This document shows, piece by piece, positions 1,938 through 23,533 of a stretch of DNA of 35,448 nucleotides. The stretch lies in assembly GCA_903847325.1 (NCBI GenBank), contig CAINDJ010000407.1, positions 1-35,448 of the forward strand, in the 5' to 3' direction. Position 1 is the first letter of the stretch. Each line of letters opens with the position of its first letter. A program made the translations under genes and the position numbers. Under the pieces are notes generated by a model that ran no database searches, was not told the DNA's origin, and saw only the letters and a list, made by a program, of their open reading frames with translations. The stretch comes from an uncultured beta proteobacterium (lineage in GTDB: Bacteria > Pseudomonadota > Gammaproteobacteria > Burkholderiales > Burkholderiaceae_B).

Positions 1938-3824
1938 ATGAATGCTGTCCAAGCTTTCCACCGCCGCTCGATTCAGGATCGTGATCAATTCTGGCGAGAT
2001 GAGGCTGCAGCGATTCACTGGCAAGTCCCCTTTACGCAGGTTCTAGATGATTCTAAGTTACCCTTTGCCAAGTGGTTTGTAGGCGGCCAGACTAACCTTT
2101 GTTTTAACGCGGTCGACAGGTGGCTGGACAGCCGTGCAGATCAGCCGGCGCTGATCTGGGTGTCGACCGAGGTCGATCAGGAGCAAACCTATACTTACCG
2201 TCAGCTGTATCAAGAGGTCAATGCGGTCGCCGCAATGCTCAAAGCGCAGGGCGTCGGGCAGGGCGATCGTGTACTCATCTATATGCCAATGGTGCCTGAG
2301 GCTGTTTTTGCGATGCTGGCCTGTGCGCGTCTGGGAGCGATCCACTCGGTCGTGTTTGGTGGATTTGCGTCAGTCAATCTGGCGCAGCGTATCGACGATG
2401 CCAAACCTAAAGTTATCGTCTGTGCGGATGCGGGCGCGCGCGCTGGCAAAGTCACTCCCTACAAGCCTTTGTTGGACAAAGCCGTTTCGCTTTGTACGGC
2501 CCCACCCGAAAAAGTAATCGTCGTGGATCGTGGCTTATTTGCTTTTGAGCCCGTCGCAGGACGTGATCTTGACTATGCTAGCTTGCGCAAACAATTTGAC
2601 GGGGTGGAGATCCCTGCTGTCTGGCTCGAGTCATCCGCACCAAGCTATGTGCTCTACACCTCAGGTACAACGGGCAAGCCCAAAGGCGTTCAGCGCGATG
2701 TCGGCGGTTATGCGGTTGCGCTGGCGTCCTCGATCAAGCATATTTTTAATGGAAAACCAGGCGACACTTTTCTTTGTACCAGTGATATTGGCTGGGTCGT
2801 GGGTCATTCCTATATTGTGTATGGCCCCCTCATTGGCGGTCAGACCACCATTCTTTACGAAGGTACACCTGTCAGGCCGGATGGCGGGATTCTCTGGAGC
2901 CTGGTTGAGCGCTTCAAGGTCGACACAATGTTTTCTGCACCCACGGCTATTCGTGTACTCAAAAAGCAGGATCCGGGTCTGCTCAAAAAATACGACCTGT
3001 CCTCTTTGCGCGCTTTATATATGGCAGGTGAGCCGCTGGACGAACCTACCGCTCAGTGGATCTCTGAAGGCCTGGGTAAACCGATTATCGATAATTACTG
3101 GCAGACTGAAACAGGCTGGCCGATCCTGGCTGGTCAGCCCGGCATTGAAAATGTTCCGACTAAATTCGGCAGCCCCTCCTTTCCCGTCTATGGTTTTGAT
3201 GTCCGCGTGATCGATGAGCAGACAGGTCAGGATCTTGGCGCCAATCAGAAAGGGGTAGTCGCGATTGTGCCTCCTTTGCCGCCAGGTGCGATGACCACCA
3301 TCTGGGGAGATGATGCGCGCTTTGTCGAAACGTATTTTTCGTCGATTCCCGGGCGGCAGGTGTATTCAACCTTTGACTGGGGCCTGGTCGATGAGGATGA
3401 CTACTGGTTCATTCTGGGACGTACCGATGACGTGATTAACGTTGCCGGCCATCGCTTAGGCACCCGGGAAATCGAAGAATCCATTAATAGCCACTCAGCC
3501 GTGGCAGAGTCGGCGGTGGTCGGCATCGCCGACCAGCTTAAAGGTCAGGTTGCCGTGGGTTTTGCTGTACTCAAAGACCCAAGCTTGCTCGATGTCGCAG
3601 GTGCAACACAAAAACTCGAAGCAGAGATTATGAAAGTTGTGGATGAGCAGCTGGGGCCGGTTGCACGCCCAGCTCGGGTACGTTTTGTCACGACCCTGCC
3701 TAAGACGCGGTCTGGTAAAGTACTCCGTCGCGCGATTGTCGCGGTTTGCGAAGGACGCGACCCCGGTGATCTCACCACAATCGAAGACCCCACTGCACTT
3801 GAACAAATTAAGGATTCATTATGA
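1938..3824 (+). CDS. prpE: Propionate--CoA ligase (acyl-CoA synthetase)
   Basis: ATG at 1938 with GGAG upstream. [23 protein letters not shown] and [15 protein letters not shown] are adenylate-forming motifs; the RDVGGYAVAL segment and overall length fit PrpE. Confidence 0.85.
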   Translation: MNAVQAFHRRSIQDRDQFWRDEAAAIHWQVPFTQVLDDSKLPFAKWFVGGQTNLCFNAVDRWLDSRADQPALIWVSTEVDQEQTYTYRQLYQEVNAVAAMLKAQGVGQGDRVLIYMPMVPEAVFAMLACARLGAIHSVVFGGFASVNLAQRIDDAKPKVIVCADAGARAGKVTPYKPLLDKAVSLCTAPPEKVIVVDRGLFAFEPVAGRDLDYASLRKQFDGVEIPAVWLESSAPSYVLYTSGTTGKPKGVQRDVGGYAVALASSIKHIFNGKPGDTFLCTSDIGWVVGHSYIVYGPLIGGQTTILYEGTPVRPDGGILWSLVERFKVDTMFSAPTAIRVLKKQDPGLLKKYDLSSLRALYMAGEPLDEPTAQWISEGLGKPIIDNYWQTETGWPILAGQPGIENVPTKFGSPSFPVYGFDVRVIDEQTGQDLGANQKGVVAIVPPLPPGAMTTIWGDDARFVETYFSSIPGRQVYSTFDWGLVDEDDYWFILGRTDDVINVAGHRLGTREIEESINSHSAVAESAVVGIADQLKGQVAVGFAVLKDPSLLDVAGATQKLEAEIMKVVDEQLGPVARPARVRFVTTLPKTRSGKVLRRAIVAVCEGRDPGDLTTIEDPTALEQIKDSL

Positions 3825-10321: not shown

Positions 10322-11857
10322 TTACATCACCGCGCCAATCTGCCACGGCACGAATTCATTCTGTCCGTAGCCGTGGTTTTCGCTCTTGGTGCGCTCGCCC
10401 GAGGCGACTTTGATGATGAGTTCAAAGATCTGTGCACCTTTTTCCTGAATCGACATGCCATTGTCTACGATCTCGCCGCAGTTAATGTCGATGTCTTCGC
10501 TTTGACGCTGCCATAACGCGTTATTGGTCGAGAGCTTGATGGAAGGCGAGGGCGCGCAGCCATAGGCCGAGCCACGCCCTGTCGTAAAGCATATCAGGTT
10601 GGCTCCGCCTGCAACTTGCCCTGTGGCCGATACCGGGTCATAGCCCGGTGTATCCATGTAGACAAACCCCTTTGCTGTCACGGGTTCTGAGTATTCGTAG
10701 ACGGCCTCCAGGCGCATCGTTCCGCCTTTAGCGACCGCGCCCAGGGATTTTTCAAGAATCGTCGTCAATCCGCCAGCCTTATTGCCTGCCGAAGGATTGT
10801 TGTTCATCTCCCCCTGATTGCGTGCGCAATAGTCTTCCCACCAGTGAATGCGTTTGATGAGTTTTTCCGCGATAGCCGCGTTTGCAGCTCTTCTTGTCAG
10901 TAAGTGCTCGGCACCGTAAATCTCTGGCGTCTCCGATAGAATTGCCGTGCCGCCATTTTGTACCAGCATGTCTACCGCGACACCCAGTGCTGGATTGGCA
11001 GAAATGCCCGAATAACCGTCAGAACCCCCGCATTGCAGGCCGAGTGTCAGATGACTGACGGGGACGTCCGTACGTGTCACTTTATTTGCGTGGGGCAGCA
11101 TGTCTTTGATGAGCGCGATACCTTTTTGTACGGTTTTTTTCGTGCCGCCGGTTTCCTGGATATTAAACGTCTGAAAGAGTGGATTTTCAGACAGTTTTTC
11201 TGCGGTCAGTAAATCGGTGATCTGGTTCGTTTCACAACCGAGACCGACCATCAGTACGCCACAGAAATTGACATGACGTGCGTAGCCTGAGAGCGTGCGG
11301 CGCAAGACGTCCATGCCCTCGCCGGTTGAACCCATCCCACAGCCGCTCCCCATCGTGAGTGCGACCACGCCGTCGACGTTTGGAAAAGCGGCGAGGGCTT
11401 CCGGGTGTGTTTCGCGGTCAAAGTGACTGGCGATGGCGCGTGCCGCGGTAGCGGAGCAATTCACGCTGGTCAGGATACCGAGATAGTTACGGGTAGCTAC
11501 TCGACCATCGGCACGAACGATGCCTTTAAACGTGCGGGGATTTTTTGCGTACTCTGTTGGTTTCGCATCAACGCCAATCGCATAGTCACGCGTAAACGCG
11601 CCTGCTTCTGCCCCCATACCCAGGTTGTGGACATGGACGTGCGCGCCTTGTTCGATGTCAGCGGTTGCGAAACCAATGATCTGGTTATAGCGTCGAACAG
11701 GTTCGCCTTTGGTTATTTTTCGTGTGGCGACCTTGTGGCCAGGTGGGATCAGGCCGCGTGTGGTCAGATTTTCTGATGCGATCTTTGTACCTGAAATAAG
11801 TTGCTGACGCGCGATGACCACATCATCCTGAGGATGCAGACGAATAATCGGTTCCAT
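10322..11857 (-). CDS. UxaA-family (altronate/galactarate dehydratase-like) hydro-lyase with N-terminal SAF domain
   Basis: The start at MEPIIRLHPQDDVVIA is preferred over the 11917 extension. GIVRADGRVATRNYLGILTSVNCSATAARAI, LGLQCGGSDGYSGISANPALG and YMDTPGYDPVSATGQVAGGANLICFTTGRGSAYG are UxaA/GarD motifs. Confidence 0.88.
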   Translation of the reverse strand: MEPIIRLHPQDDVVIARQQLISGTKIASENLTTRGLIPPGHKVATRKITKGEPVRRYNQIIGFATADIEQGAHVHVHNLGMGAEAGAFTRDYAIGVDAKPTEYAKNPRTFKGIVRADGRVATRNYLGILTSVNCSATAARAIASHFDRETHPEALAAFPNVDGVVALTMGSGCGMGSTGEGMDVLRRTLSGYARHVNFCGVLMVGLGCETNQITDLLTAEKLSENPLFQTFNIQETGGTKKTVQKGIALIKDMLPHANKVTRTDVPVSHLTLGLQCGGSDGYSGISANPALGVAVDMLVQNGGTAILSETPEIYGAEHLLTRRAANAAIAEKLIKRIHWWEDYCARNQGEMNNNPSAGNKAGGLTTILEKSLGAVAKGGTMRLEAVYEYSEPVTAKGFVYMDTPGYDPVSATGQVAGGANLICFTTGRGSAYGCAPSPSIKLSTNNALWQRQSEDIDINCGEIVDNGMSIQEKGAQIFELIIKVASGERTKSENHGYGQNEFVPWQIGAVM

Positions 11858-11927
11858 TGTGATTCCTGTAATTGATTCTGTAGTTATTTTGTGTTTGTTT
11901 TGTGTATGCTCTGTCACTGCGCTGTGT

Positions 11928-12794
11928 TTATTCTTTCACTGATCCGGTCATGCCGGATACGTAATACTCAACGAAAAACGAGTATACAAAGGCGACTGGT
12001 AATGAGCCCAGCAGGGCTCCTGCCATCAGCGCGCCCCAGTGATAGACATCGCCTTCGACCAATTCAGTAATGACGCCCACAGGAACTGTTTTGATCTCCG
12101 AGGACGAGACAAAAGTCAGTGCGTAGATGAATTCATTCCATGACAGCGTAAAGGCAAAGATACCGGCTGAGATCAGACCGGGCACGGCGAGCGGCAAAAT
12201 GATCCGTGTGAGGATCTGCCAGCGGCTCGCACCGTCGATCATCGCGCACTCTTCGAGCTCGAAAGGAATGGTTCTGAAATAGCCCATGAGCAGCCAGGTA
12301 CAAAATGGAACGAGAAAAGTAGGGTAGGTGAGAATCAGCGCCATGCGCGTATCGAATAATCCATACTGATACACGATGCTGGCCAGAGGGATAAAGATAA
12401 TCGAGGGTGGAACCAGATAGGCAAAGAAAATTACCATCCCTGCGACTTTCGCACCCTTAAAACGCAGACGCTCGATCGCGTAGGCGGCCAGCACAGAGGT
12501 GAATAGCGAAACAAAGGTTGAGCACACCGATACGATCACGGTGTTGAGCAGCCATGCCGGATACGAGGTGTGAAACAACAGCTTTTTAAAGTGTGCGAGT
12601 GTCGGGTTGATCAGCCAGAAAGGGTTGCCCGCTTTTGACAGCAGTTCCTCATTTGGCTTGAAAGCAGTCATTCCCATCCAGTAAAAAGGGAATAACAAAA
12701 TAACGAGCATCAGGATCAGTGGAATATAAATCGTCACCCAGCGACGCGGCAGCGAGGTTAAAAATTCCATACCGTTATTGTTTTGTTTGGACAT
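11928..12794 (-). CDS. Carbohydrate ABC transporter permease (MalG/UgpE-like)
   Basis: EECAMIDGASRWQILTRIILPLAVPGLISAGIFAFTLSWNEF is the EAA-loop permease signature of CUT1 systems. Confidence 0.92.
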   Translation of the reverse strand: MSKQNNNGMEFLTSLPRRWVTIYIPLILMLVILLFPFYWMGMTAFKPNEELLSKAGNPFWLINPTLAHFKKLLFHTSYPAWLLNTVIVSVCSTFVSLFTSVLAAYAIERLRFKGAKVAGMVIFFAYLVPPSIIFIPLASIVYQYGLFDTRMALILTYPTFLVPFCTWLLMGYFRTIPFELEECAMIDGASRWQILTRIILPLAVPGLISAGIFAFTLSWNEFIYALTFVSSSEIKTVPVGVITELVEGDVYHWGALMAGALLGSLPVAFVYSFFVEYYVSGMTGSVKE

Positions 12795-12812
12795 TGCGTA
12801 GAGTTCCTGAAA

Positions 12813-13727
12813 TTATTTGTCGGCGCCTTGCTGCCACGCGCGACGTTGCAAGCCAAAGTAACTAAACATAATTGCTGCCAGCAGTAGCGGCACCATCATA
12901 GTTGCGATCGCGGCACCTTCGCCCATGGATCCGCCAGGGATCGCACGTTGAAAGGCCAGTGTCGCCATCAGGTGGGTCGCGTTGAGTGGACCTCCGCGTG
13001 TCAAGACATAGATCAACTGGAAATCGGTAAACGTGAACAACACGGAAAAGGTCATCACAACCGCGATGATCGGTGTGAGCAACGGCATCGTGATGTAACG
13101 AAACTGTTGCCAGGGTGTCGCACCGTCAATGGAGGCTGCTTCGTAGTAGGACGGCGAAATTGTCTGCAGGCCTGCGAGTAACGAAATCGCCACGAAGGGA
13201 ATGCCGCGCCAGACGTTGGCGATAATGACAGACATGCGCGCGAGCCAGGGCTCGCCCAGGAAATCGATATACGTATCGATCAAACCCATTTTGACAAGGA
13301 GCCAGCTCAGGACAGAAAATTGTGAATCATAGAGCCACCAGAACGCGATAGCGGAGAGTGCGGTCGGCACAATCCAGGGCAACAACACAACAGCCCTGAA
13401 AAATGACTGGAAGGGCAGGTTTTTATTTAATAAAAGCGCCAGCCAAAGGCCTAGCAGGAATTTGAAAATACTCGCCACGATCGTATAAAAAAGCGTATTG
13501 AAAACAGAGAGCAAAAACACACTGTCGGTCAACAGATAGGTAAAGTTTTCCAGACCAATCCATTCTCCTGGCCGACCAATTTTCGCATCGGTAAAACCAA
13601 GCCATGTTCCCAGGCCAAGTGGGTACGCGAGCAATCCAATCAGCAGCAACGCAGCGGGCACCATGAAGGCATAGCCGAGTGCGTGGCGGTTGGACTGAAA
13701 TCTTTCCAGTAGTGACAGGTTGCTCAT
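12813..13727 (-). CDS. Sugar ABC transporter permease (UgpA/MalF-like)
   Basis: Start MSNLSLLERFQSNRHALG preferred; YYEAASIDGATPWQQFRYITMPLLTPII is the EAA loop. Confidence 0.9.
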   Translation of the reverse strand: MSNLSLLERFQSNRHALGYAFMVPAALLLIGLLAYPLGLGTWLGFTDAKIGRPGEWIGLENFTYLLTDSVFLLSVFNTLFYTIVASIFKFLLGLWLALLLNKNLPFQSFFRAVVLLPWIVPTALSAIAFWWLYDSQFSVLSWLLVKMGLIDTYIDFLGEPWLARMSVIIANVWRGIPFVAISLLAGLQTISPSYYEAASIDGATPWQQFRYITMPLLTPIIAVVMTFSVLFTFTDFQLIYVLTRGGPLNATHLMATLAFQRAIPGGSMGEGAAIATMMVPLLLAAIMFSYFGLQRRAWQQGADK

Positions 13728-13845
13728 GTGTAGATGCTTTGGTTGTAGTGTTGACAAAAAACGTTCGCCTGTCTGGTGGTGCATGCTGAGTGGTGCATGT
13801 TTAGCCGTGCCTGCATCCAGCATGCGAACGTTGTTCTAGTCTTTA

Positions 13846-15168
13846 TTAGCTCTTGTAATAACGCTTGGCGCGCTCGGCAGCGCGTGCGGCCGCTTCTTTT
13901 GGTGTTTTGTTACCACTTGAAGCTTCAGCCACCATGTCGAGCACGATATAGTCGGCCAGACATGCAGCCGAGGCGGCACCCAGGGGGCCTGAATTGCCGT
14001 GATACGTCATCATGGCTGGACCTTCGCCGTAGACTTTCGCCTTTGGATCTGTTGTCCAGATAGGATTCTTGTCGTAGGCTTTGAGTGTTTGCGCACCATA
14101 ACCAATCGACTTTTCCAACCAGGGGTTGTATTGCTCGGCTTCCATTAACCAGCGCGCGAGTTCTTTGGTGGCGTTAGGATATTTGGTGTGCGAGAACAGC
14201 ATCATTTGCGTGATCTGCATCAACTCCATGGGTTTGCCAACCGGGCCGACCGGGAAGTGCGCATGCTGGATGTCTTTGGCCATTTCCTGCATTTTTGGAT
14301 CAGGCGAAGTTTTGGCCGCGTAATACACAGAGATGCCGTTAGCGGTCAGACTGATCTGGCCGTCAAGGAATGCCTTGTTATTGTTAGGATCTTGCCAGGA
14401 AAGTGTGCCGGGGACAAAGGTCTTGTAGAGCTGAGCGGCGTATTCAAGGGCTGCGATGGTCTCGGGTGAGTTCACCACCACATTGCCTTTGTCATCCACC
14501 AGCTTGCCGCCATGGGACCAGAGCAGCCAGTGGACCCAGTTGTTGCCATCACCGACTGCTTTGCCCAGCGCGAAACCTGCTGGTGTGCCTTTTGCTTTCA
14601 TCGCCTGGCACAGCTTGAGAAAACCTGCCGTGTCGGTTGGCATCGCGTCAAAGCCTGCTGCTTTCATATGGCTTTCGCGATACACCATGGCATTGGCGAT
14701 AATGGCCCATGGTACTGAAATCCATTTGTTGTTCAGGGTGCCGTATTGCTTGGATACGTCGTACCAGCCACCATACTTGTTACCCAGATAGGTGCAGAGC
14801 TCTGTGACATCAAGCAATTTTGTCGGGTACTGGAATGGATCATCGAACCAACCCATGATCATGTCTGGGCCGCTGCCTACGTTGGCGGTGACCGCTGCTT
14901 TAGGGCGAACATCTTCCCAGCCCTCGTTGTCAACACGCACTTCAACGCCCGTCGCTTTGCTAAAGGCCGCGACGTTGGCCATGAACTGATCCTCATCGCC
15001 CTGAACGAAACGTTTCCAGCGCAGCACGCGCAGTTTCGCACCAGCTTCTGGCTTGTATGAAAGGGTTGGCGTTTGCGCCATGGTGAGCGGGCTATAGCTA
15101 CCTACCGCCGAGGCACCTGCGACAGCTGCGCCTGTTCCGATAAATTCACGACGTGATACGTTTTTCAT
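13846..15168 (-). CDS. Extracellular solute-binding protein of the ABC importer, probable Tat substrate
   Basis: SRREFIGTGAAVAGASAVG signal sequence; the body resembles family 1 sugar-binding proteins and sits between the permease and ATPase genes. Confidence 0.9.
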   Translation of the reverse strand: MKNVSRREFIGTGAAVAGASAVGSYSPLTMAQTPTLSYKPEAGAKLRVLRWKRFVQGDEDQFMANVAAFSKATGVEVRVDNEGWEDVRPKAAVTANVGSGPDMIMGWFDDPFQYPTKLLDVTELCTYLGNKYGGWYDVSKQYGTLNNKWISVPWAIIANAMVYRESHMKAAGFDAMPTDTAGFLKLCQAMKAKGTPAGFALGKAVGDGNNWVHWLLWSHGGKLVDDKGNVVVNSPETIAALEYAAQLYKTFVPGTLSWQDPNNNKAFLDGQISLTANGISVYYAAKTSPDPKMQEMAKDIQHAHFPVGPVGKPMELMQITQMMLFSHTKYPNATKELARWLMEAEQYNPWLEKSIGYGAQTLKAYDKNPIWTTDPKAKVYGEGPAMMTYHGNSGPLGAASAACLADYIVLDMVAEASSGNKTPKEAAARAAERAKRYYKS

Positions 15169-15253
15169 GCTTGATCTCCTTGGGTACAGCAGTGGACTGC
15201 TTTGTTATTAAAAAGACTGCAATCGAATCATTCATTAAGAGCTACACAACAAA

Positions 15254-16321
15254 CTAAAGAACGGTGCCACTCGCCGCATCAAATAAGTGGCATTTGGTCA
15301 CGTCAGGCCTGAGTTTCAATGTCTGGCCTGGGACGATATCCATGCGCTCGTGGAACACGATCGTCATGGGCGTTGCAGCGAGTTCACAACTTACAAAAGT
15401 ATCTGCACCGGTGGGTTCGATCACATTTGCGGTGACGGTAATCTGACCCGCGGGGTCAATGATGAGGTGCTCTGGACGAGTGCCGAACAATGCTTCTTGT
15501 CCTTCGTTGCCGACCAGATAGTTCTTGACGGTAATGATGATGCCATCGCGTAACTCGATCGCGGTGGAGCCGTTCTGGTGACGCAACTTGCCAGGCAACA
15601 TATTCATGGCGGGTGAGCCGATGAATCCCGCAACAAAGGTATTGGTGGGATGTTCGTATAGCTCGAGCGGACCGCCGACTTGTTCGACGATGCCGTCGCG
15701 CATGACGACGATCTGATCGCCCATTGTCATGGCTTCGATCTGATCGTGTGTCACATAGACAGAAGTGGTTTTCAATCGTTGATGCAAAGCCTTGATCTCG
15801 GTGCGCATCTGCACGCGCAGTTTTGCGTCCAGGTTTGATAGTGGCTCGTCAAAAAGAAATACTTGCGGATCACGCACAATCGCACGTCCCATTGCGACGC
15901 GCTGGCGTTGCCCGCCTGAGAGCTGGCGCGGGAAACGCTCAAGCAGCTCGGTCAAGCCCAGGATTTCAGCCGCGCGTTTGACCCGCGCGTCGCTGTCGGC
16001 TTTATCTGCCTTGGCCAGCATGAGCGAAAACGCCATGTTGTCCCGAACGGACATGTGAGGGTAGAGCGCGTAATTCTGAAACACCATTGCGATGTCGCGC
16101 TCTTTGGGTTGCATATTGTTGACGCATCTGTCGCCAATGAATATTTCACCGCCCGTGACTTCTTCTAGACCTGCCAGCATGCGTAACAGCGTTGATTTTC
16201 CACAACCAGATGGACCAACCAGGACCGTAAAGGAGCCCTCAGGTATTGTGATATCCACACCATGAAGAATCTCAGTGTCTTGAAAAGATTTCTTGACGCC
16301 GCGTAGGGTGACACTAGCCAT
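15254..16321 (-). CDS. ABC transporter ATP-binding protein (UgpC/MsmK-like)
   Basis: Walker [10 protein letters not shown], signature [14 protein letters not shown], Walker [13 protein letters not shown], and a C-terminal TOBE-like region. Confidence 0.94.
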
Positions 16322-17274
16322 TATCGCGATCCTTGAATGACAACGTAATCAGGTTTGCCTGTTTTGGCAAAGGTAATAATGTTTTGTGCTGCCTTGCTGC
16401 GCAACTCGATTTCGGCTTCTTTCGAAAAGAACGCTGCGTGAGGCGTGAGAATCGTGCGTGGGTGGCGAACCAGAGGATGGTCGCCGGGAGGCTCGGTTGG
16501 CAATACGTCAAGAGCCAGTCCGCCCAGAATGCCGGAGTCGAGGGCCGCGAGCGCGTCGTCTACGTTAACCAGACCGCCACGTGCGGTATTGACGATAAAG
16601 CTTGCGGGCTTCATCAGCTTGAGCATATCGCGATTGATGATGTTGCGGGTTTCATCGTTGAGCGGTGTGTGGACCGAAATAATATCTGCGGTGGAAAAAA
16701 GTTTTTCCATTTCTACACGTTCGACGTAGGGTGGAAAGTCATACGCCATGATATGAGGGTCGCAAGCGATCACTTTGCCGTACGTCTCGCGAGCGATATG
16801 CGCAAAGCGTTTGCCAATGCGACCCAGACCCAGTACCCCAACCGTCATGTTGAGTGGTCGCTTGAGTACGCCCGGGCTCAGATAGTGCCATGTGCCGGCG
16901 CGCACATCGCGATCATAAAAAGATAAGTGACGGGTGAGATTCAGCGCCATCGCAAAGGCGTGGCTGGCGACTTCGTGCACACCGTAGTCGGGTGAGTTGC
17001 CCACCCAGACGCCGCACGCTTGCGCATCATTGGTATTGATCGTGTCAAACCCTGCGCCAAAACGACTGACAATTTTCAGCTTAGGCAGTGCCTCAAATAC
17101 TTTACGGTTGGCTGGAGCGTATTGCAATAAAAATGCATCAGCATTTTTACCGGCTTCGATAAGATCATCCTCTGTCTTGCACTGGGCTGTGGTCACCGAT
17201 AATCCAGCTTTCTTAAACAGGTCGAGCTCAAGTTCGACATTTGGAAAGTCGAAGTCCGTAATTAAAACGTTCAT
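16321..17274 (-). CDS. NAD-dependent D-2-hydroxyacid dehydrogenase family protein (CtBP-like)
   Basis: GVLGLGRIGKRFAHIA dinucleotide fold; NTARGGLVN, LDVLPTEPP and LTPHAAFFS supply the Arg/Glu/His catalytic positions. Overlaps the ATPase start by 1 bp. Confidence 0.92.
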   Translation of the reverse strand: MNVLITDFDFPNVELELDLFKKAGLSVTTAQCKTEDDLIEAGKNADAFLLQYAPANRKVFEALPKLKIVSRFGAGFDTINTNDAQACGVWVGNSPDYGVHEVASHAFAMALNLTRHLSFYDRDVRAGTWHYLSPGVLKRPLNMTVGVLGLGRIGKRFAHIARETYGKVIACDPHIMAYDFPPYVERVEMEKLFSTADIISVHTPLNDETRNIINRDMLKLMKPASFIVNTARGGLVNVDDALAALDSGILGGLALDVLPTEPPGDHPLVRHPRTILTPHAAFFSKEAEIELRSKAAQNIITFAKTGKPDYVVIQGSR

Positions 17275-17341
17275 GAAAGCGTATGTCTCCAGCGAATTGA
17301 TTTGGCAATTGTGTTTGACTTGGTGACTGAAGGATATTATG

Positions 17342-17374
17342 GTTGTGCCAACAGAGCAATTGGCCTGACCAATT
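17342..17374. promoter_or_regulatory. Candidate operator for the FadR-type GntR regulator in the divergent promoter region
   Basis: AATTGG-CCTGA-CCAATT perfect inverted repeat at 17358-17374, preceded by the smaller palindrome GTTG-TGC-CAAC at 17342-17352. The same TTGG-N5-CCAA core occurs at 20054-20072. Confidence 0.65.
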
Positions 17375-17420
17375 TTTAGCTAAACAGCGGGAAAACCCCT
17401 AAACTTTTGAGGCAAATACG

Positions 17421-18188
17421 ATGGCTGCAGCAGCGATTTATGATTTTTCAGGTAAACACGCCGTGGTGACAGGCGGCGCCGCAGGCATTGGTGAGGCCTG
17501 TGCACGACGTTTATTGAATGGTGGAGCAAAAGTATCAATCTGGGATCGTGATGAGAAAGCGCTGGCTGCGGTGCGGGAAAAATTCGGTGCGCACGCGCAG
17601 GGCGTGCAGGTGGATGTCTCCGATGAGCAATCTGTGATGGCTGCGGTCAAGGCTACGCTGGCCTTTGCAAACCATATCGATATTCTTGTGAATAGCGCGG
17701 GTATCACGGGACCGAACACGACCGTCATCGAGTACCCGGTCGAGGAGTGGAATCGGGTGTTTGATATCAACGTGCGCGGTACGTTTCTGACATGTAAAAA
17801 CATCGCGCCGATCATGAAACTGGCCAACGGCGGCAAGGGTTATGGTCGCATTGTGAATATCGCCTCGGTTGCGGGCAAAGAAGGTAATCCAAACGCGTCT
17901 GCCTATAGTGCTTCGAAAGCAGCCGTGATAGGACTGACCAAGTCCTTGGGTAAGGAACTGTCCTTGACAGAAATCAAGGTCAACTGCATCACCCCGGCAG
18001 CAGTCAAGACGGGCATGTTTGATCAGATGACGCAGCAGCATATTGATTTCATGCTCTCTAAAATCCCGATGAATCGCTTTGGCGAAATTACCGAAATCGC
18101 TAACCTGGTCGCCTGGTTATCTTCGGATGAGTGCAGCTTCTCGACTGGCGCGGTCTTTGATATCTCCGGTGGTCGTGCGACATATTGA
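17421..18188 (+). CDS. SDR-family oxidoreductase (FabG-like)
   Basis: VTGGAAGIGEACARRL, DILVNSAGITG and YSASKAAVIGLTKSLGKEL are classical SDR motifs. Confidence 0.92.
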   Translation: MAAAAIYDFSGKHAVVTGGAAGIGEACARRLLNGGAKVSIWDRDEKALAAVREKFGAHAQGVQVDVSDEQSVMAAVKATLAFANHIDILVNSAGITGPNTTVIEYPVEEWNRVFDINVRGTFLTCKNIAPIMKLANGGKGYGRIVNIASVAGKEGNPNASAYSASKAAVIGLTKSLGKELSLTEIKVNCITPAAVKTGMFDQMTQQHIDFMLSKIPMNRFGEITEIANLVAWLSSDECSFSTGAVFDISGGRATY

Positions 18189-18200
18189 TTCAAGAGATTA

Positions 18201-19265
18201 ATGATGACTGAGACACTACCGATATATCGCAGCGAAGATCTGCTCGCGTTCGCAACCAGTTTGCTCGTTCACGCAGGGCTCGATGCCGACAAGTCGCAAA
18301 TCGTTGCCCGCACGCTTGTCGAGGGCGACTTGCTTGGCCATACTACGCACGGTCTGGCCCTGCTGCCTGGCTACCTGAAAGATCTTCTTGCCGCAGGCAT
18401 GACTGCGCATGGCAGCTATCGCGTGTTGCGCGATAAGCCCGCGGTGCAGCTTTGGGATGGCGAGCGCCTGCCTGGTCCGTGGCTGATCGAACAAGGTCTG
18501 GATATGCTGATTCCCCGGGCGCGCGAGCTAGGTGTCGCGACCCTTGCGATCAAGCGTAGCCATCACATTGCTTGCCTGGCTGTCTATCTGATGCGTGCGG
18601 CTAAGGAGGGCATGTTGATGGTACTCGCGAGCTCTGACCCGGCTGCTGCGAGTGTTGCTCCCTTTGGGGGTACGCAGCCCGTTATGACGCCTAATCCGAT
18701 CGCGATGGGTTTCCCGTGTTCGCGTGGTGATGTGTTGATTGATATTTCAGCATCGATTACGACTAATGGCATGTGCAATCGTCGTGCCGCTGCCGGAGAA
18801 ACTTTCGCCGAAGATTGGCTGATGGACGCGCAAGGCAATCCGACCAATGATCCTGCTGTGTTTGCCCAGAATCCTCCTGGTACCATTCTGCCGATTGGCG
18901 GACTGAGCTACGGACATAAAGGCTACGGCTTAGGTCTCATGGTCGAAGCGTTGACAGGGGGGCTGACCGGTTGGGGACGCGCGGATCCCAAAGAAGGTTG
19001 GGGCGCGACAGTGCACATTACTTTGTATGATCCCGAGGCTTTTGGCGGGCGAGCTGATTTTCTTCGGCAGATGGATCACCTGGCCGGATCCTGCATCCAT
19101 AATGTGCCGCGCGTGCCAGGTACAAAAGTACGTCTGCCGGGTCAGGCAGGTTTGGCATTGCGCGCGGAGCAATTAAAGAGCGGGGTCAAGCTTCACCCGG
19201 GTATTTTGCCCGGCTTAACGGCTTTTGCGGATAAGTTCAATGTCGCCTTGCCAGCGAGTTTGTGA
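18201..19265 (+). CDS. Ldh2/MDH2-family (malate/L-lactate-type) NAD(P)-dependent oxidoreductase
   Basis: GHTTHGLALLPGYL, IKRSHHIACLAVYL, GGTQPVMTPNPIAMGFP and LPIGGLSYGHKGYGLGLMVEALTGGLTG are family motifs. Confidence 0.92.
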   Translation: MMTETLPIYRSEDLLAFATSLLVHAGLDADKSQIVARTLVEGDLLGHTTHGLALLPGYLKDLLAAGMTAHGSYRVLRDKPAVQLWDGERLPGPWLIEQGLDMLIPRARELGVATLAIKRSHHIACLAVYLMRAAKEGMLMVLASSDPAAASVAPFGGTQPVMTPNPIAMGFPCSRGDVLIDISASITTNGMCNRRAAAGETFAEDWLMDAQGNPTNDPAVFAQNPPGTILPIGGLSYGHKGYGLGLMVEALTGGLTGWGRADPKEGWGATVHITLYDPEAFGGRADFLRQMDHLAGSCIHNVPRVPGTKVRLPGQAGLALRAEQLKSGVKLHPGILPGLTAFADKFNVALPASL

Positions 19266-19984
19266 TCACTGTTTGATTTGACCCAGCTCGCCGAGAATCG
19301 CTTGTAGGCGCGTTCCATGTGATGTCGCATGGCTAAGCGCGCCTTCTCCGCGTCGCGGGCTTTAATGGCGCGAACAATCGCACGGTGCTCCTTGATCGCC
19401 TGATTCCAGGTGATGCTGGTATCGAAATAATTAGATAGTCTGGAGAACAGCACGCCCATTCGCGCGTCGAACATTTGTTCGACCATGATTGCCAGGACTT
19501 GATTGCCTGAGGCGCGTGCAAGCACCGTGTGAAACTCGCGGTCTGCCGCAAGCGGGCTCTGATTTTTTTCAGACCGCTCAATCATCTGGTTGAGCAGGGA
19601 TTCGAGTTGTTCAACATCCTTGTCCGTGCGGCACAGTGCTGCTTGGGAGGCGATTTCAGACTCAATCAGTAGTCTGGCCTGGATGAGTTCAAAGGGGGCG
19701 AATTCTTTGGCTACGATCTTGCTCTCGCGCCGTCCTTTCTGTTTTGCCTGTTCGGGTTTGCACACATAAACCCCCGAGCCCATCTTGATCTGGACCACAC
19801 CAATCACCTCAAGCGCAATCAGCGCTTCGCGAACTGAAGGGCGCGAGACTTTGAATTTTTCAGCTAGGTCACGTTCGGAGGGCAGACGACTTTCCACCGG
19901 GAATTCGCCCGCATCGATCAGGTGCAAAAGTTGATCTGCGATCTGCTGGTAAACCCGACGTGTATCGATGGATTGGATAGGCAT
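19193..19984 (-). CDS. FadR-subfamily GntR transcriptional regulator (FCD domain)
   Basis: VYQQIADQLLHLIDAGEFPVESRLPSERDLAEKFKVSRPSVREALIALEVIGVVQIKMGSGVYV is a GntR wHTH; the C-terminal part fits FCD. Start MPIQSIDTRR preferred over the 20077 extension. Confidence 0.92.
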   Translation of the reverse strand: MPIQSIDTRRVYQQIADQLLHLIDAGEFPVESRLPSERDLAEKFKVSRPSVREALIALEVIGVVQIKMGSGVYVCKPEQAKQKGRRESKIVAKEFAPFELIQARLLIESEIASQAALCRTDKDVEQLESLLNQMIERSEKNQSPLAADREFHTVLARASGNQVLAIMVEQMFDARMGVLFSRLSNYFDTSITWNQAIKEHRAIVRAIKARDAEKARLAMRHHMERAYKRFSASWVKSNSDHKLAGKATLNLSAKAVKPGKIPG

Positions 19985-20053
19985 GGAAATATGTGTTGCG
20001 TGGAGAGGCAAAAAGTACGAAGCTGTGGATTGGATTTTGGCATAATAACTGGT

Positions 20054-20072
20054 AAATTGGTAAAGCCAATTT
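20054..20072. promoter_or_regulatory. Candidate operator for the FadR-type GntR regulator
   Basis: AAATTGG-TAAAG-CCAATTT perfect 7-bp inverted repeat between the divergent regulator (start 19984) and SDR (start 20092). Confidence 0.7.
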
Positions 20073-20091: not shown

Positions 20092-20841
20092 ATGCGTCTG
20101 CAAGGAAAAAAAATAGTTGTCACAGCTGCGGGTCAGGGCATCGGTCGGGCTACTGTACTGGCAATGGCGAAAGAGGGGGCGACTATTTGGGCTACGGATA
20201 TCAACCCCGAGTTGCTCAAGTCTTATGCGGGTGTGCCTAATATTCATACCGCAGTGCTCAATGTCTTGAAAACCGCTGAGGTCGAGGCCTTTGCCAAGCA
20301 GGTTGGCAATATCGATGTGTTGTTTAACTGCGCGGGTTTTGTGCATCAGGGCGATATTCTGAACCTGAGCGAAGCCGACTGGGATTTCAGCATGGATTTG
20401 AATGTTAAGTCCATGTATCGCACGATTCGTGCCTTTGTTCCGGGTATGTTGGCGCAAGGCCATGGCAGTGTGATCAATATGGCGTCTGCTGCATCCAATA
20501 TCAAAGGCGCGCCCAATCGCGTGATTTACAGCGCGTCCAAAGCGGCGGTCATTGGTTTGACCCGCGCCTTGGCGGCCGATTACGTGTCCCGTGGTGTGCG
20601 TTTTAATGCCATTTGCCCCGGTACGATTGAGTCGCCTTCGCTGGGCGATCGTATTCAGGCCGTTTCACAACAAAGTGGCAAAACAGTTGCGCAGGCGCGT
20701 GAGCAGTTCGTCGCACGCCAGCCGATCGGTCGCATTGGCAAAGCCGAAGAAATCGCTTATCTCGCGATTTATCTCGCCTCAGACGAGTCGGCATTTACAA
20801 CAGGTACTTCACAAATTATTGATGGCGGATGGTCGCTGTAA
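20092..20841 (+). CDS. SDR-family dehydrogenase, resembling 2-keto-3-deoxy-L-fuconate/rhamnonate dehydrogenases
   Basis: VTAAGQGIGRATVLAMAKEGATIWATDIN, NCAGFVHQGDIL and YSASKAAVIGLTRALAADYVSRGVRFNAICPGTIESPSL; next gene is an FAH-family hydrolase. Confidence 0.87.
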   Translation: MRLQGKKIVVTAAGQGIGRATVLAMAKEGATIWATDINPELLKSYAGVPNIHTAVLNVLKTAEVEAFAKQVGNIDVLFNCAGFVHQGDILNLSEADWDFSMDLNVKSMYRTIRAFVPGMLAQGHGSVINMASAASNIKGAPNRVIYSASKAAVIGLTRALAADYVSRGVRFNAICPGTIESPSLGDRIQAVSQQSGKTVAQAREQFVARQPIGRIGKAEEIAYLAIYLASDESAFTTGTSQIIDGGWSL

Positions 20842-20865: not shown

Positions 20866-21717
20866 ATGAAACTCGTTCGCTATGGCGCTAAAGGCAAAGA
20901 AAAGCCCGGTCTGATTGATAAAGAAGGCAAACTGCGCGATCTATCGAAAGTCGTCAAAGACATTACCCCGGAGCAGTTCACCACTGCGGGAATGGCTGCA
21001 TTGAAAAAGCTCGATACCAACAAATTGCCCTTGGTCAAAGGCAAGCCACGCTTTGGCGTGCCTTTCTCAGGTGTGGGTAAGTTCCTGGCGATCGGTTTGA
21101 ACTATTCAGATCACGCAGAAGAAGCCGGCATGGCGATCCCCAAAGAACCTATCATGTTCTTTAAGGCCGATACCAGCCTGACAGGCCCTAACGATAAAGT
21201 CATGCTGCCACAAGGCTCGAAAAAATCCGACTGGGAAGTCGAACTCGGAATCGTGATTGGCAAAAAAGCCCGTTATGTCACCAAGAAAGACGCACTCAAA
21301 CACGTAGCAGGTTATTGCGTCGTCAATGACGTATCCGAGCGCGAGTATCAGCTTGAGCGTGGCGGTACCTGGGATAAGGGCAAGGGCTGTGACACGTTTG
21401 GTCCGGTTGGCCCATGGCTTGTGACGAGCGACGAAATCAAGGACCCACAAAATCTCGATATGTGGCTGGACGTAAACGGTAAACGTTTTCAGACAGGCAA
21501 TACAAAGACCATGATTTTTGATGCGGCAACCATCATCAGCTACGTCAGTGAATTCATGACCTTGATGCCTGGCGATATCATCACGACCGGCACACCACCT
21601 GGCGTGGGCATGGGTGTTAAGCCTAAGCCAAGATTCCTGAAAGCAGGCGACGTGATGACACTCGGTATCGAGGGACTGGGTGCGCAGCGCCAGGAAGTTG
21701 TCGCATTTAAAAAATAA
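20866..21717 (+). CDS. Fumarylacetoacetate hydrolase (FAH) family protein, possible 2,4-diketo-3-deoxy-aldonate hydrolase
   Basis: FLAIGLNYSDHAEEAGMAIPKEPIMFFK, DWEVELGIVIGKKA and LMPGDIITTGTPPGVGMG are FAH-family metal and active-site motifs. Confidence 0.92.
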   Translation: MKLVRYGAKGKEKPGLIDKEGKLRDLSKVVKDITPEQFTTAGMAALKKLDTNKLPLVKGKPRFGVPFSGVGKFLAIGLNYSDHAEEAGMAIPKEPIMFFKADTSLTGPNDKVMLPQGSKKSDWEVELGIVIGKKARYVTKKDALKHVAGYCVVNDVSEREYQLERGGTWDKGKGCDTFGPVGPWLVTSDEIKDPQNLDMWLDVNGKRFQTGNTKTMIFDAATIISYVSEFMTLMPGDIITTGTPPGVGMGVKPKPRFLKAGDVMTLGIEGLGAQRQEVVAFKK

Positions 21718-21790: not shown

Positions 21791-23533
21791 GTGGCCAAGT
21801 CGAACAAAAAAACTGCTCCGGCTAGTCGCTCGAGTCAATGGTTTGCGCGTAACGATATTTATGGTTTTATCTATCGCAGCTGGACCAAAAACCGCGGCAT
21901 TCCTCATGATCAGTTTGATGGTCGTCCTGTGATCGGTATTTGCAATACCTGGTCGGAGCTGACGCCTTGTAATACTCATCTGAGAGTCTTGGCCGATCAG
22001 GTTAAACAGGGCGTGCTGGAGGCCGGTGGTTTTCCGCTTGAGTTCCCGGTGACCTCGCTGGGCGAAACCTTAGTGCGTCCAACAGCGATGTTGTTACGTA
22101 ATCTCGCCAGTATGGATGTTGAGGAAACGATTCGCGCAAATCCTCTGGATGGTGTGGTGCTGCTGTTTGGTTGCGACAAGACAACTCCTTCACTATTGAT
22201 GGGTGCTTCGAGTGTCAATATCCCGACCATCGGCGTGTCAGGTGGTCCGATGCTCAATGGTAAATATCGTGGCCAGGATATTGGCTCAGGCACCAATACT
22301 TGGTCGATGTCGGAGGATGTACGTGCCGGCAAGATGACAGTCGAAGAATTCCACGAGGCAGAGTCCTGCATGCACCGCTCGCATGGTAGCTGTATGGTGA
22401 TGGGGACAGCCTCAACGATGGCGAGTATGGTCGAGGCGCTCGGTGTCGCCTTGCCTGGTAACGCTGCCTTTCCCGCTGTGGATGCGCGGCGCAACGTGTT
22501 GGCGCGTGAGTCGGGTCGTCGCATCGTGCAGATGGTTAAAGACAACATCACACTCGATAAGATTCTGACACGCCAGGCATTTGAGAATGCGATTCGCACC
22601 AATGCTGCGATTGGTGGTTCGACCAATGCTGTGATTCATTTGATCGCGATTGCGCGTCGTATTGGCGTAGATCTTGGGATTGATGACTGGGATAAATTTG
22701 GGCGTGATGTGCATACATTGCTCAACCTGATGCCAAGTGGCAAATATCTGATGGAAGACTTCTGCTATGCAGGAGGCTTGCCGGTGATCTTGCGCACGCT
22801 TGGTGAGCAGGGTTTGTTGAATAAAAAGGCCTTGACCGTCACGGGCAAAAGCATCTGGGATAACAACAAAAAAGCCGAGTGCTGGAATCGTGATGTCATC
22901 ACGACCTGGGAAAAACCATTCAAGAAAAACACGGGTATCGCTGTACTGCGTGGCAATCTTTGCCCGGATGGCGCGATTATCAAACCATCGGCGGCGACCC
23001 CTAAATTGCTCAAGCATCGGGGTCGTGCAGTGGTGTTCGAGGATATCGAGGATTTCCACAAACGCATCGACAGTCCTCGGCTCGATATCGATGAAAACTG
23101 CATCATGGTGCTTAAGAACTGCGGCCCTAAAGGTTATCCAGGCATGGCAGAGGTGGGCAATATGCCATTGCCACCCAAGATCCTGAAAAAAGGTATCACC
23201 GATATGATCCGTATTTCAGATGCGCGCATGAGTGGTACTGCATACGGCACCGTGGTGTTGCACGTGGCGCCCGAGGCAGCGGCAGGTGGCACGCTCGCCC
23301 TGGTAGAAAATGGCGATATGATCGAACTCGATGTAGCCAAGCGTCGCCTGCATCTGGATGTGAGTGATGAAGTCCTGGCAACGCGTAAGCTCAAATGGAA
23401 AGCGCCCAAGCCACCCCTTGACCGCGGCTATTACAAACTCTATGTCGAGCATGTCAATCAAGCCAACGAAGGTGTTGACTTTGATTTCCTGGTCGGCTGC
23501 AGCGGCAGCGCTGTGCCGCGTGACAATCACTAA
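21791..23533 (+). CDS. IlvD/Edd-family dehydratase (aldonate/pentonate dehydratase-like)
   Basis: GCDKTTPSLLMGASSVNIPTIGVSGGPM, CMHRSHGSCMVMGTASTM and DARMSGTAYGTVVLHVAPEAAAGG are IlvD/Edd Fe-S and active-site motifs. Confidence 0.93.
   Translation: MAKSNKKTAPASRSSQWFARNDIYGFIYRSWTKNRGIPHDQFDGRPVIGICNTWSELTPCNTHLRVLADQVKQGVLEAGGFPLEFPVTSLGETLVRPTAMLLRNLASMDVEETIRANPLDGVVLLFGCDKTTPSLLMGASSVNIPTIGVSGGPMLNGKYRGQDIGSGTNTWSMSEDVRAGKMTVEEFHEAESCMHRSHGSCMVMGTASTMASMVEALGVALPGNAAFPAVDARRNVLARESGRRIVQMVKDNITLDKILTRQAFENAIRTNAAIGGSTNAVIHLIAIARRIGVDLGIDDWDKFGRDVHTLLNLMPSGKYLMEDFCYAGGLPVILRTLGEQGLLNKKALTVTGKSIWDNNKKAECWNRDVITTWEKPFKKNTGIAVLRGNLCPDGAIIKPSAATPKLLKHRGRAVVFEDIEDFHKRIDSPRLDIDENCIMVLKNCGPKGYPGMAEVGNMPLPPKILKKGITDMIRISDARMSGTAYGTVVLHVAPEAAAGGTLALVENGDMIELDVAKRRLHLDVSDEVLATRKLKWKAPKPPLDRGYYKLYVEHVNQANEGVDFDFLVGCSGSAVPRDNH

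Follow-up and report, generated by a model that had tools for sequence, protein, structure and literature searches.

FadR-subfamily regulators typically recognise sites of the form GT-N3-AC, whereas in UxuR sites GT and AC are spaced by 2 nt (PMC4494728). The E. coli PdhR box reads AATTGGTnnnACCAATT (PMC7660256) and the E. coli LldR box AAnTGGTCnGACCAnTT, with AATTGGccctACCAATT as the lldP operator (PMC10272880). Our literature searches found no description of the exact box reported here or of such a regulator in Burkholderiales, and the orthologue group and its regulon appear to be undescribed in the literature searched. We propose, with a probability of roughly 0.9, that two palindromes in a locus of an uncultured beta proteobacterium are operators of the GntR/FCD regulator encoded between them, which would act as a sugar-acid-released repressor of the flanking operons and of a distant ADH/TRAP operon.

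Gene content and the two palindromes

The window (the whole stretch of 35,448 nucleotides that was analysed) contains the following genes and predicted operators; positions are those of the window, and the palindromes are given without strand.

10322..11917, minus strand: galactarate/altronate dehydratase family protein (UxaA/GarD type; Pfam GD_AH_C, E=1e-103)
11928..16321, minus strand: sugar-type ABC transporter (UgpC/MalK-like ATPase, solute-binding protein, two permeases)
16321..17274, minus strand: D-2-hydroxyacid dehydrogenase, first gene of the leftward operon (Pfam 2-Hacid_dh_C, E=6e-50)
17358..17374, no strand: operator 1, AATTGGCCTGACCAATT, exact match, between the leftward D-2-hydroxyacid dehydrogenase/ABC/UxaA-type operon and the rightward SDR1-Ldh2 operon
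17421..18188, plus strand: SDR1, short-chain dehydrogenase
18201..19265, plus strand: Ldh2-family dehydrogenase (Pfam Ldh_2, E=4.6e-83)
19193..19984, minus strand: GntR/FCD (FadR-subfamily) regulator, 263 aa (Pfam GntR, E=4.9e-21; FCD, E=2.2e-28)
20055..20071, no strand: operator 2, AATTGGTAAAGCCAATT, exact match, between the GntR gene and the SDR2-FAH-IlvD operon
20092..20841, plus strand: SDR2, close to L-2-keto-3-deoxyfuconate 4-dehydrogenase (PDB 8y4j, E=3.5e-88)
20866..21717, plus strand: FAH-family 2,4-diketo-3-deoxy-sugar-acid hydrolase (NCBIfam NF053535, 492.5 bits, cut-off 500)
21791..23533, plus strand: IlvD/Edd-family sugar-acid dehydratase (NCBIfam PRK06131 subfamily, 929.9 bits)

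The regulator has the architecture of the GntR/FadR (FCD) group, with an N-terminal GntR winged helix (74.6 bits) and a C-terminal FCD domain (99.6 bits), both above the Pfam cut-offs. The best NCBIfam models were ExuR, NanR, UxuR and LldR, and all scores stayed below the curated cut-offs (bits/cut-off: ExuR 145.9/396, NanR 141.8/260, UxuR 121.1/442, LldR 118.2/311, PdhR 80.7/330), which places the protein outside these five orthologue groups. The 3' ends of its gene and of the Ldh2 gene share about 73 bp (19193-19265), the two genes lying tail to tail.

An SDR, an FAH-family hydrolase and an IlvD-family dehydratase, the set of a diketo-hydrolase pathway, are combined in one operon. SDR2 retains the arginines in the aligned substrate-binding segments of 8y4j as well as the Trp of the C-terminal GGWS, and the FAH protein is close to L-2,4-diketo-3-deoxyrhamnonate hydrolase (PDB 8gsr, E=6e-111). 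Judging from these similarities, the gene cluster most likely degrades a sugar acid by a diketo-hydrolase route. The IlvD/Edd-family protein remained below the cut-off of the L-arabinonate dehydratase model (858.9, cut-off 882), as did the UxaA/GarD-type protein for the galactarate dehydratase model.

Both AATTGG-N5-CCAATT palindromes named in the preliminary description were found exactly where it had placed them, with all 12 specified bases, and operator 2 extends to AAATTGG...CCAATTT (20054-20072). The window (35 kb) holds no further exact copy, and the whole genome has three. A first-order Markov model predicts 0.0044 exact copies for 35 kb and 0.46 for a genome of 3.7 Mb; for the two intergenic stretches combined, the expectation is about 7e-5. 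The looser core TTGG-N5-CCAA, with one mismatch allowed, gave 21 matches in the window versus 17.6 expected, which is not significant alone, so that it is the full 17-mer that confers specificity. At genome scale, too, this core was rejected as a regulon signal, being too frequent (91 exact copies versus 59 for the backwards control). A one-mismatch genomic match inside an IscR-like gene (C3:7266) was regarded as noise.

Conservation of the sites and their tie to the regulator

Orthologous loci were fetched with the regulator as query. This yielded 19 orthologues (58-94% identical) from Sheuella/Jezberella-type Alcaligenaceae and 'Candidatus Protistobacter'. Phylogenetic footprinting, fixed beforehand as the refutation test, found both palindromes conserved in orthologous loci. 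At the operator 2 position, AATTGG-N5-CCAATT was present in 19/19 loci (20 aligned sequences with the window), and operator 1 was intact in every locus in which the region was present and undecayed (17 aligned sequences including the window and the second half of the split locus L056); since many of the genomes compared in this study are metagenome-assembled and related, the counts are not fully independent. Each operator set has 15 of 17 columns invariant, including all 12 specified bases, as compared with an average majority identity of 54-85% in the nearest 25 bases outside. On one flank of each operator the neighbouring bases also show fair conservation, and the promoter therefore accounts for part of the conserved block. 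In L048 (Candidatus Protistobacter heckmanni), operator 1 is absent, and the regulator and operator 2 are kept. The IlvD, SDR1 and SDR2 genes of this locus give split matches, suggesting broken genes.

The centre of operator 1 in the orthologues is TCAGA/TCTGA. In relatives the site is a perfect AATTGGT-CAG-ACCAATT, with one changed base in the spacer of the window. This orthologue form, TTGGT-CAG-ACCAA, agrees with the FadR-type palindrome TKGT-N3-ACMA, as does the order-wide consensus described below; in the window operators themselves, one half site each has C for T (or G for A).

Within the genus, the site follows the regulator. Among 25 same-genus genomes, all 15 with a regulator orthologue have at least one exact site, and eight of the ten lacking the orthologue have none (Fisher p = 4e-5, with the sites of the two exceptions, G006 and G010, both counted). 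The G010 site has a different centre and lies in an unrelated place. In G006 the locus is a relic (L095, G006:C5, 5967-8135) in which the regulator gene is lost but for a remnant (QAIKEHR-like); operator 2 is retained, with a single mismatch in operator 1 and changes in the SDR1 promoter block. The regulator may have been lost naturally here, or the draft assembly may be in error. Across the 19 orthologues, the recognition-helix segment SRPSVREALIALE does not vary, save for one residue in L048.

A protein search in 399 genomes of the order revealed 18 further Burkholderiales homologues (41-50% identity) with different neighbours. Of the 18, 17 have the motif, with 0-2 mismatches, in the 200 bp preceding the regulator gene, while eight control patterns (altered spacings, the backwards motif and three scrambled palindromes) were found in 0-1/18. 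The one exception is L121, where the regulator lies behind Ldh2 in the same direction. Like operator 2, these 17 sites show the layout of autoregulation, lying between divergent operons or upstream of the regulator's own gene. The resulting order-wide consensus is AA[T/G]TGG[T/C]C[A/T]G[A/G]CCA[A/C]TT. Hence, a Burkholderiales-wide orthologous group keeps a PdhR/LldR-type box, with the target genes rearranged between loci. Brucellaceae homologues (~41% identity; L050-L055) have a TTTGGTCAAGCC[A/G]CTT-like site about 95 bp upstream of the regulator, and several of them a further motif-like site, TTTGGTCTTACCAAA, near the regulator start.

The third genomic copy of the palindrome is on another contig. 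It stands about 24 bp ahead of a gene resembling L-idonate-5-dehydrogenase, behind which a TRAP transporter is encoded. Six genomes carry this third operator undamaged in front of ADH-DctP. ADH and DctP are moreover immediate neighbours of the regulator gene in several other genera of the Burkholderiales, an independent link that makes the third target credible. The preliminary description had assigned to the embedded regulator the flanking transcription units and the regulator gene itself; this part is supported, and the extent proposed was too small, given the third operator at the ADH/TRAP operon. Taken together, the sequence comparisons give a well-supported predicted regulon of one regulator, three operators and five transcription units. 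Exact sites with different centres in relatives (G003:C6, G005:C13, G010:C111, G018:C31, G024:C44 and others) were not counted as regulon; their scanned flanks held no regulon genes, save for weak (33-35%) IlvD/DctP similarity in four.

Promoter geometry and a second conserved element

The promoter elements around the two operators, in part putative, are as follows.

17315..17320, plus strand: -35 TTGACT of the rightward SDR1 promoter, 17/17 conserved
17330..17344, no strand: AT-rich block AAGGATATTATGGTT, nearly invariant in 17 sequences
17338..17343, plus strand: -10 TATGGT of the rightward SDR1 promoter, spacer 17 or 18
20034..20042, minus strand: probable -10 of the regulator promoter, TGCCAAAAT, of the extended -10 type, with operator 2 covering the region upstream
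20037..20042, plus strand: likely -35 TTGGCA of the SDR2-FAH-IlvD promoter, put forward by inference; TTGACA in many orthologues

Of the promoters suggested previously, TTGACT-17-TATGGT upstream of SDR1 held up: it is present in the window and conserved in 17/17 sequences, with a spacer of 17 or 18. The distance from its -10 to operator 1 is 14 bp in all 17, and operator 1 would lie at about +8 to +24 relative to the inferred SDR1 start. The AT-rich block probably also holds a leftward -10 (CATAAT, complement of 17336-17341), which would put operator 1 over the leftward -35 region. On the other side of the regulator gene, the -10 of the SDR2-FAH-IlvD operon would fall inside operator 2.

For the regulator gene, the promoter TTGGCT-16-TATTAT had been put forward. 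It can be read in the window, but recurs in 0/19 orthologues, and we rejected it, since TATTAT occurs in 1/20 sequences while a TGnCAAAAT-like element or TGCAAAAAT occurs in 20/20 (TGnCA[N]A[ACT]T in 16/20, TGCAAAAAT in the other 4/20). An extra palindrome near operator 1, GTTG-TGC-CAAC, was likewise abandoned as a regulatory element: apart from the window it is found only in the near relative L031 and is chance or lineage-specific.

The region between operator 1 and SDR1 contains a second conserved element that the preliminary description had not listed.

17388..17401, plus strand: second element CGGGAAAACCCCTA, between operator 1 and the SDR1 start codon

In the form CGGGAAAACCC[C/T]TA, i.e. 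CGGG[AT]AAACCC[CT]TA, it is present in 17/17 orthologous regions (duplicated in L033), with one exact copy in the genome of the window. A similar element, GGG-N4-CCC-Y-A-A, is also found ahead of the third operator, in six of six genomes. A second regulator may bind at this element. It is a tentative suggestion, at clearly less than even odds, that the SDR1/ABC divergon and the ADH/TRAP operon share a site GGG-N4-CCC-Y-[AT]-A for a partner regulator; if so, the sugar-acid regulon would combine a repressor using a PdhR/LldR box with a second, undescribed input. As a genome-wide motif, CGGGAAAACCCYTA was discarded (one exact copy; copies elsewhere without common theme); its looser form gave 6 copies versus 1 for the control. 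In three same-genus genomes (L111, L112, L113), CGGGAAAACCCCTA also adjoins a low-molecular-weight phosphatase/iscR operon, near 3700-3780.

Mechanism, rival readings and comparison with known systems

The sequence comparisons establish the sites themselves, how invariant they are, that they go with the regulator, and how they are placed relative to the promoter elements; from this we infer binding, repression as opposed to activation, and the class of effector. The regulator is most likely an autoregulated, sugar-acid-induced repressor. Without inducer, a dimer would occupy each operator. On operator 2 (20055-20071) it would cover the SDR2-FAH-IlvD promoter together with the upstream part of the regulator gene's promoter. 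On operator 1 (17358-17374) its place would be just downstream of the SDR1-Ldh2 start and across the -35 region that serves the D-2-hydroxyacid dehydrogenase/ABC/UxaA operon. It would also bind the third operator, before the distant operon for a Zn-dependent sugar-acid dehydrogenase and the TRAP transporter. Binding of the pathway sugar acid or a 2-keto-3-deoxy sugar acid to the FCD domain would release the regulator, and uptake and catabolism would be induced together. Induction by a sugar acid is suggested by the FCD family and the gene content.

The operators could instead belong to a paralogous FadR-type regulator (LldR- or PdhR-like) encoded elsewhere in the genome, with the embedded GntR protein using another box. 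The box is indeed of a generic PdhR/LldR type, and the genome encodes eight other FCD proteins that could in principle share it. Nevertheless, we regard this as very improbable: within the genus the sites come and go with the embedded regulator, the motif has stayed in front of its homologues even where loci are rearranged across the order, and the recognition helices of those paralogues that were recovered from the same genome (all but three) differ from SRPSVREAL. Conservation of the palindromes as promoter or transcript structure with no regulator bound would fit their overlapping or adjoining promoter elements, but has a negligible probability in view of an identical 17-mer at three promoters of otherwise unrelated sequence, its occurrence in distant rearranged loci at varying distances and its dependence on the presence of the regulator. 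The earlier proposal that one embedded GntR protein acts at both divergent promoters and on itself has thus withstood all available sequence tests; operator invariance, co-occurrence of site and regulator, the motif upstream of distant homologues and its FadR-type form all support this single-regulator reading.

The mode of action leaves somewhat more latitude. Operator positions at the SDR1, SDR2 and regulator promoters favour repression and autorepression, whereas that of operator 1 at the leftward promoter gives room for a dual role. Activation or dual regulation at some promoters is unlikely, but far less so than the readings just discussed. Operator 1 is near the leftward -35 region, where the -35 hexamer is poor, and this position would suit activation too; a further member of the subfamily, GlcC, is classed in E. 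coli among the dual regulators. On the other hand, SDR1 has a good -35, a fixed -10 and an operator downstream of the start, and operator 2 overlaps the expected SDR2 -10, both of which suit repression.

The regulon reveals no new mechanism. What began as a by-eye guess has become a well-supported predicted regulon in freshwater Alcaligenaceae, giving a binding site and an inducer class to follow. On the pathway side, the closest parallel is the non-phosphorylating diketo-hydrolase route for L-fucose and L-rhamnose (FucC-FucF-FucG; LRA5-LRA6), whose last three steps correspond in kind to SDR2, the FAH hydrolase and the dehydratase. The cluster of the window differs in that its dehydratase is of the IlvD type, and it adds an ABC transporter, a UxaA-type dehydratase and the ADH/TRAP operon.

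Among regulators, the hexuronate repressors ExuR and UxuR are among the closest curated models and act on similar substrates (compare the UxaA-type dehydratase in the predicted regulon), but the protein scores far below both cut-offs, and the GT/AC spacing of UxuR is 2 nt versus 3 in our motif. PdhR has the same or a closely matching box and likewise a site that separates its gene from a divergently oriented one; it senses pyruvate and controls pyruvate dehydrogenase, and the protein of the window reaches 80.7 bits against the PdhR cut-off of 330. LldR shares the GntR/FCD architecture and the 17-bp, odd-spaced palindrome, its box being practically identical to the order-wide consensus, yet it controls lactate genes, whereas the targets predicted here serve sugar-acid catabolism and uptake. 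The regulon is predicted to be of the textbook, autoregulated FadR-subfamily type with a PdhR/LldR-type box.
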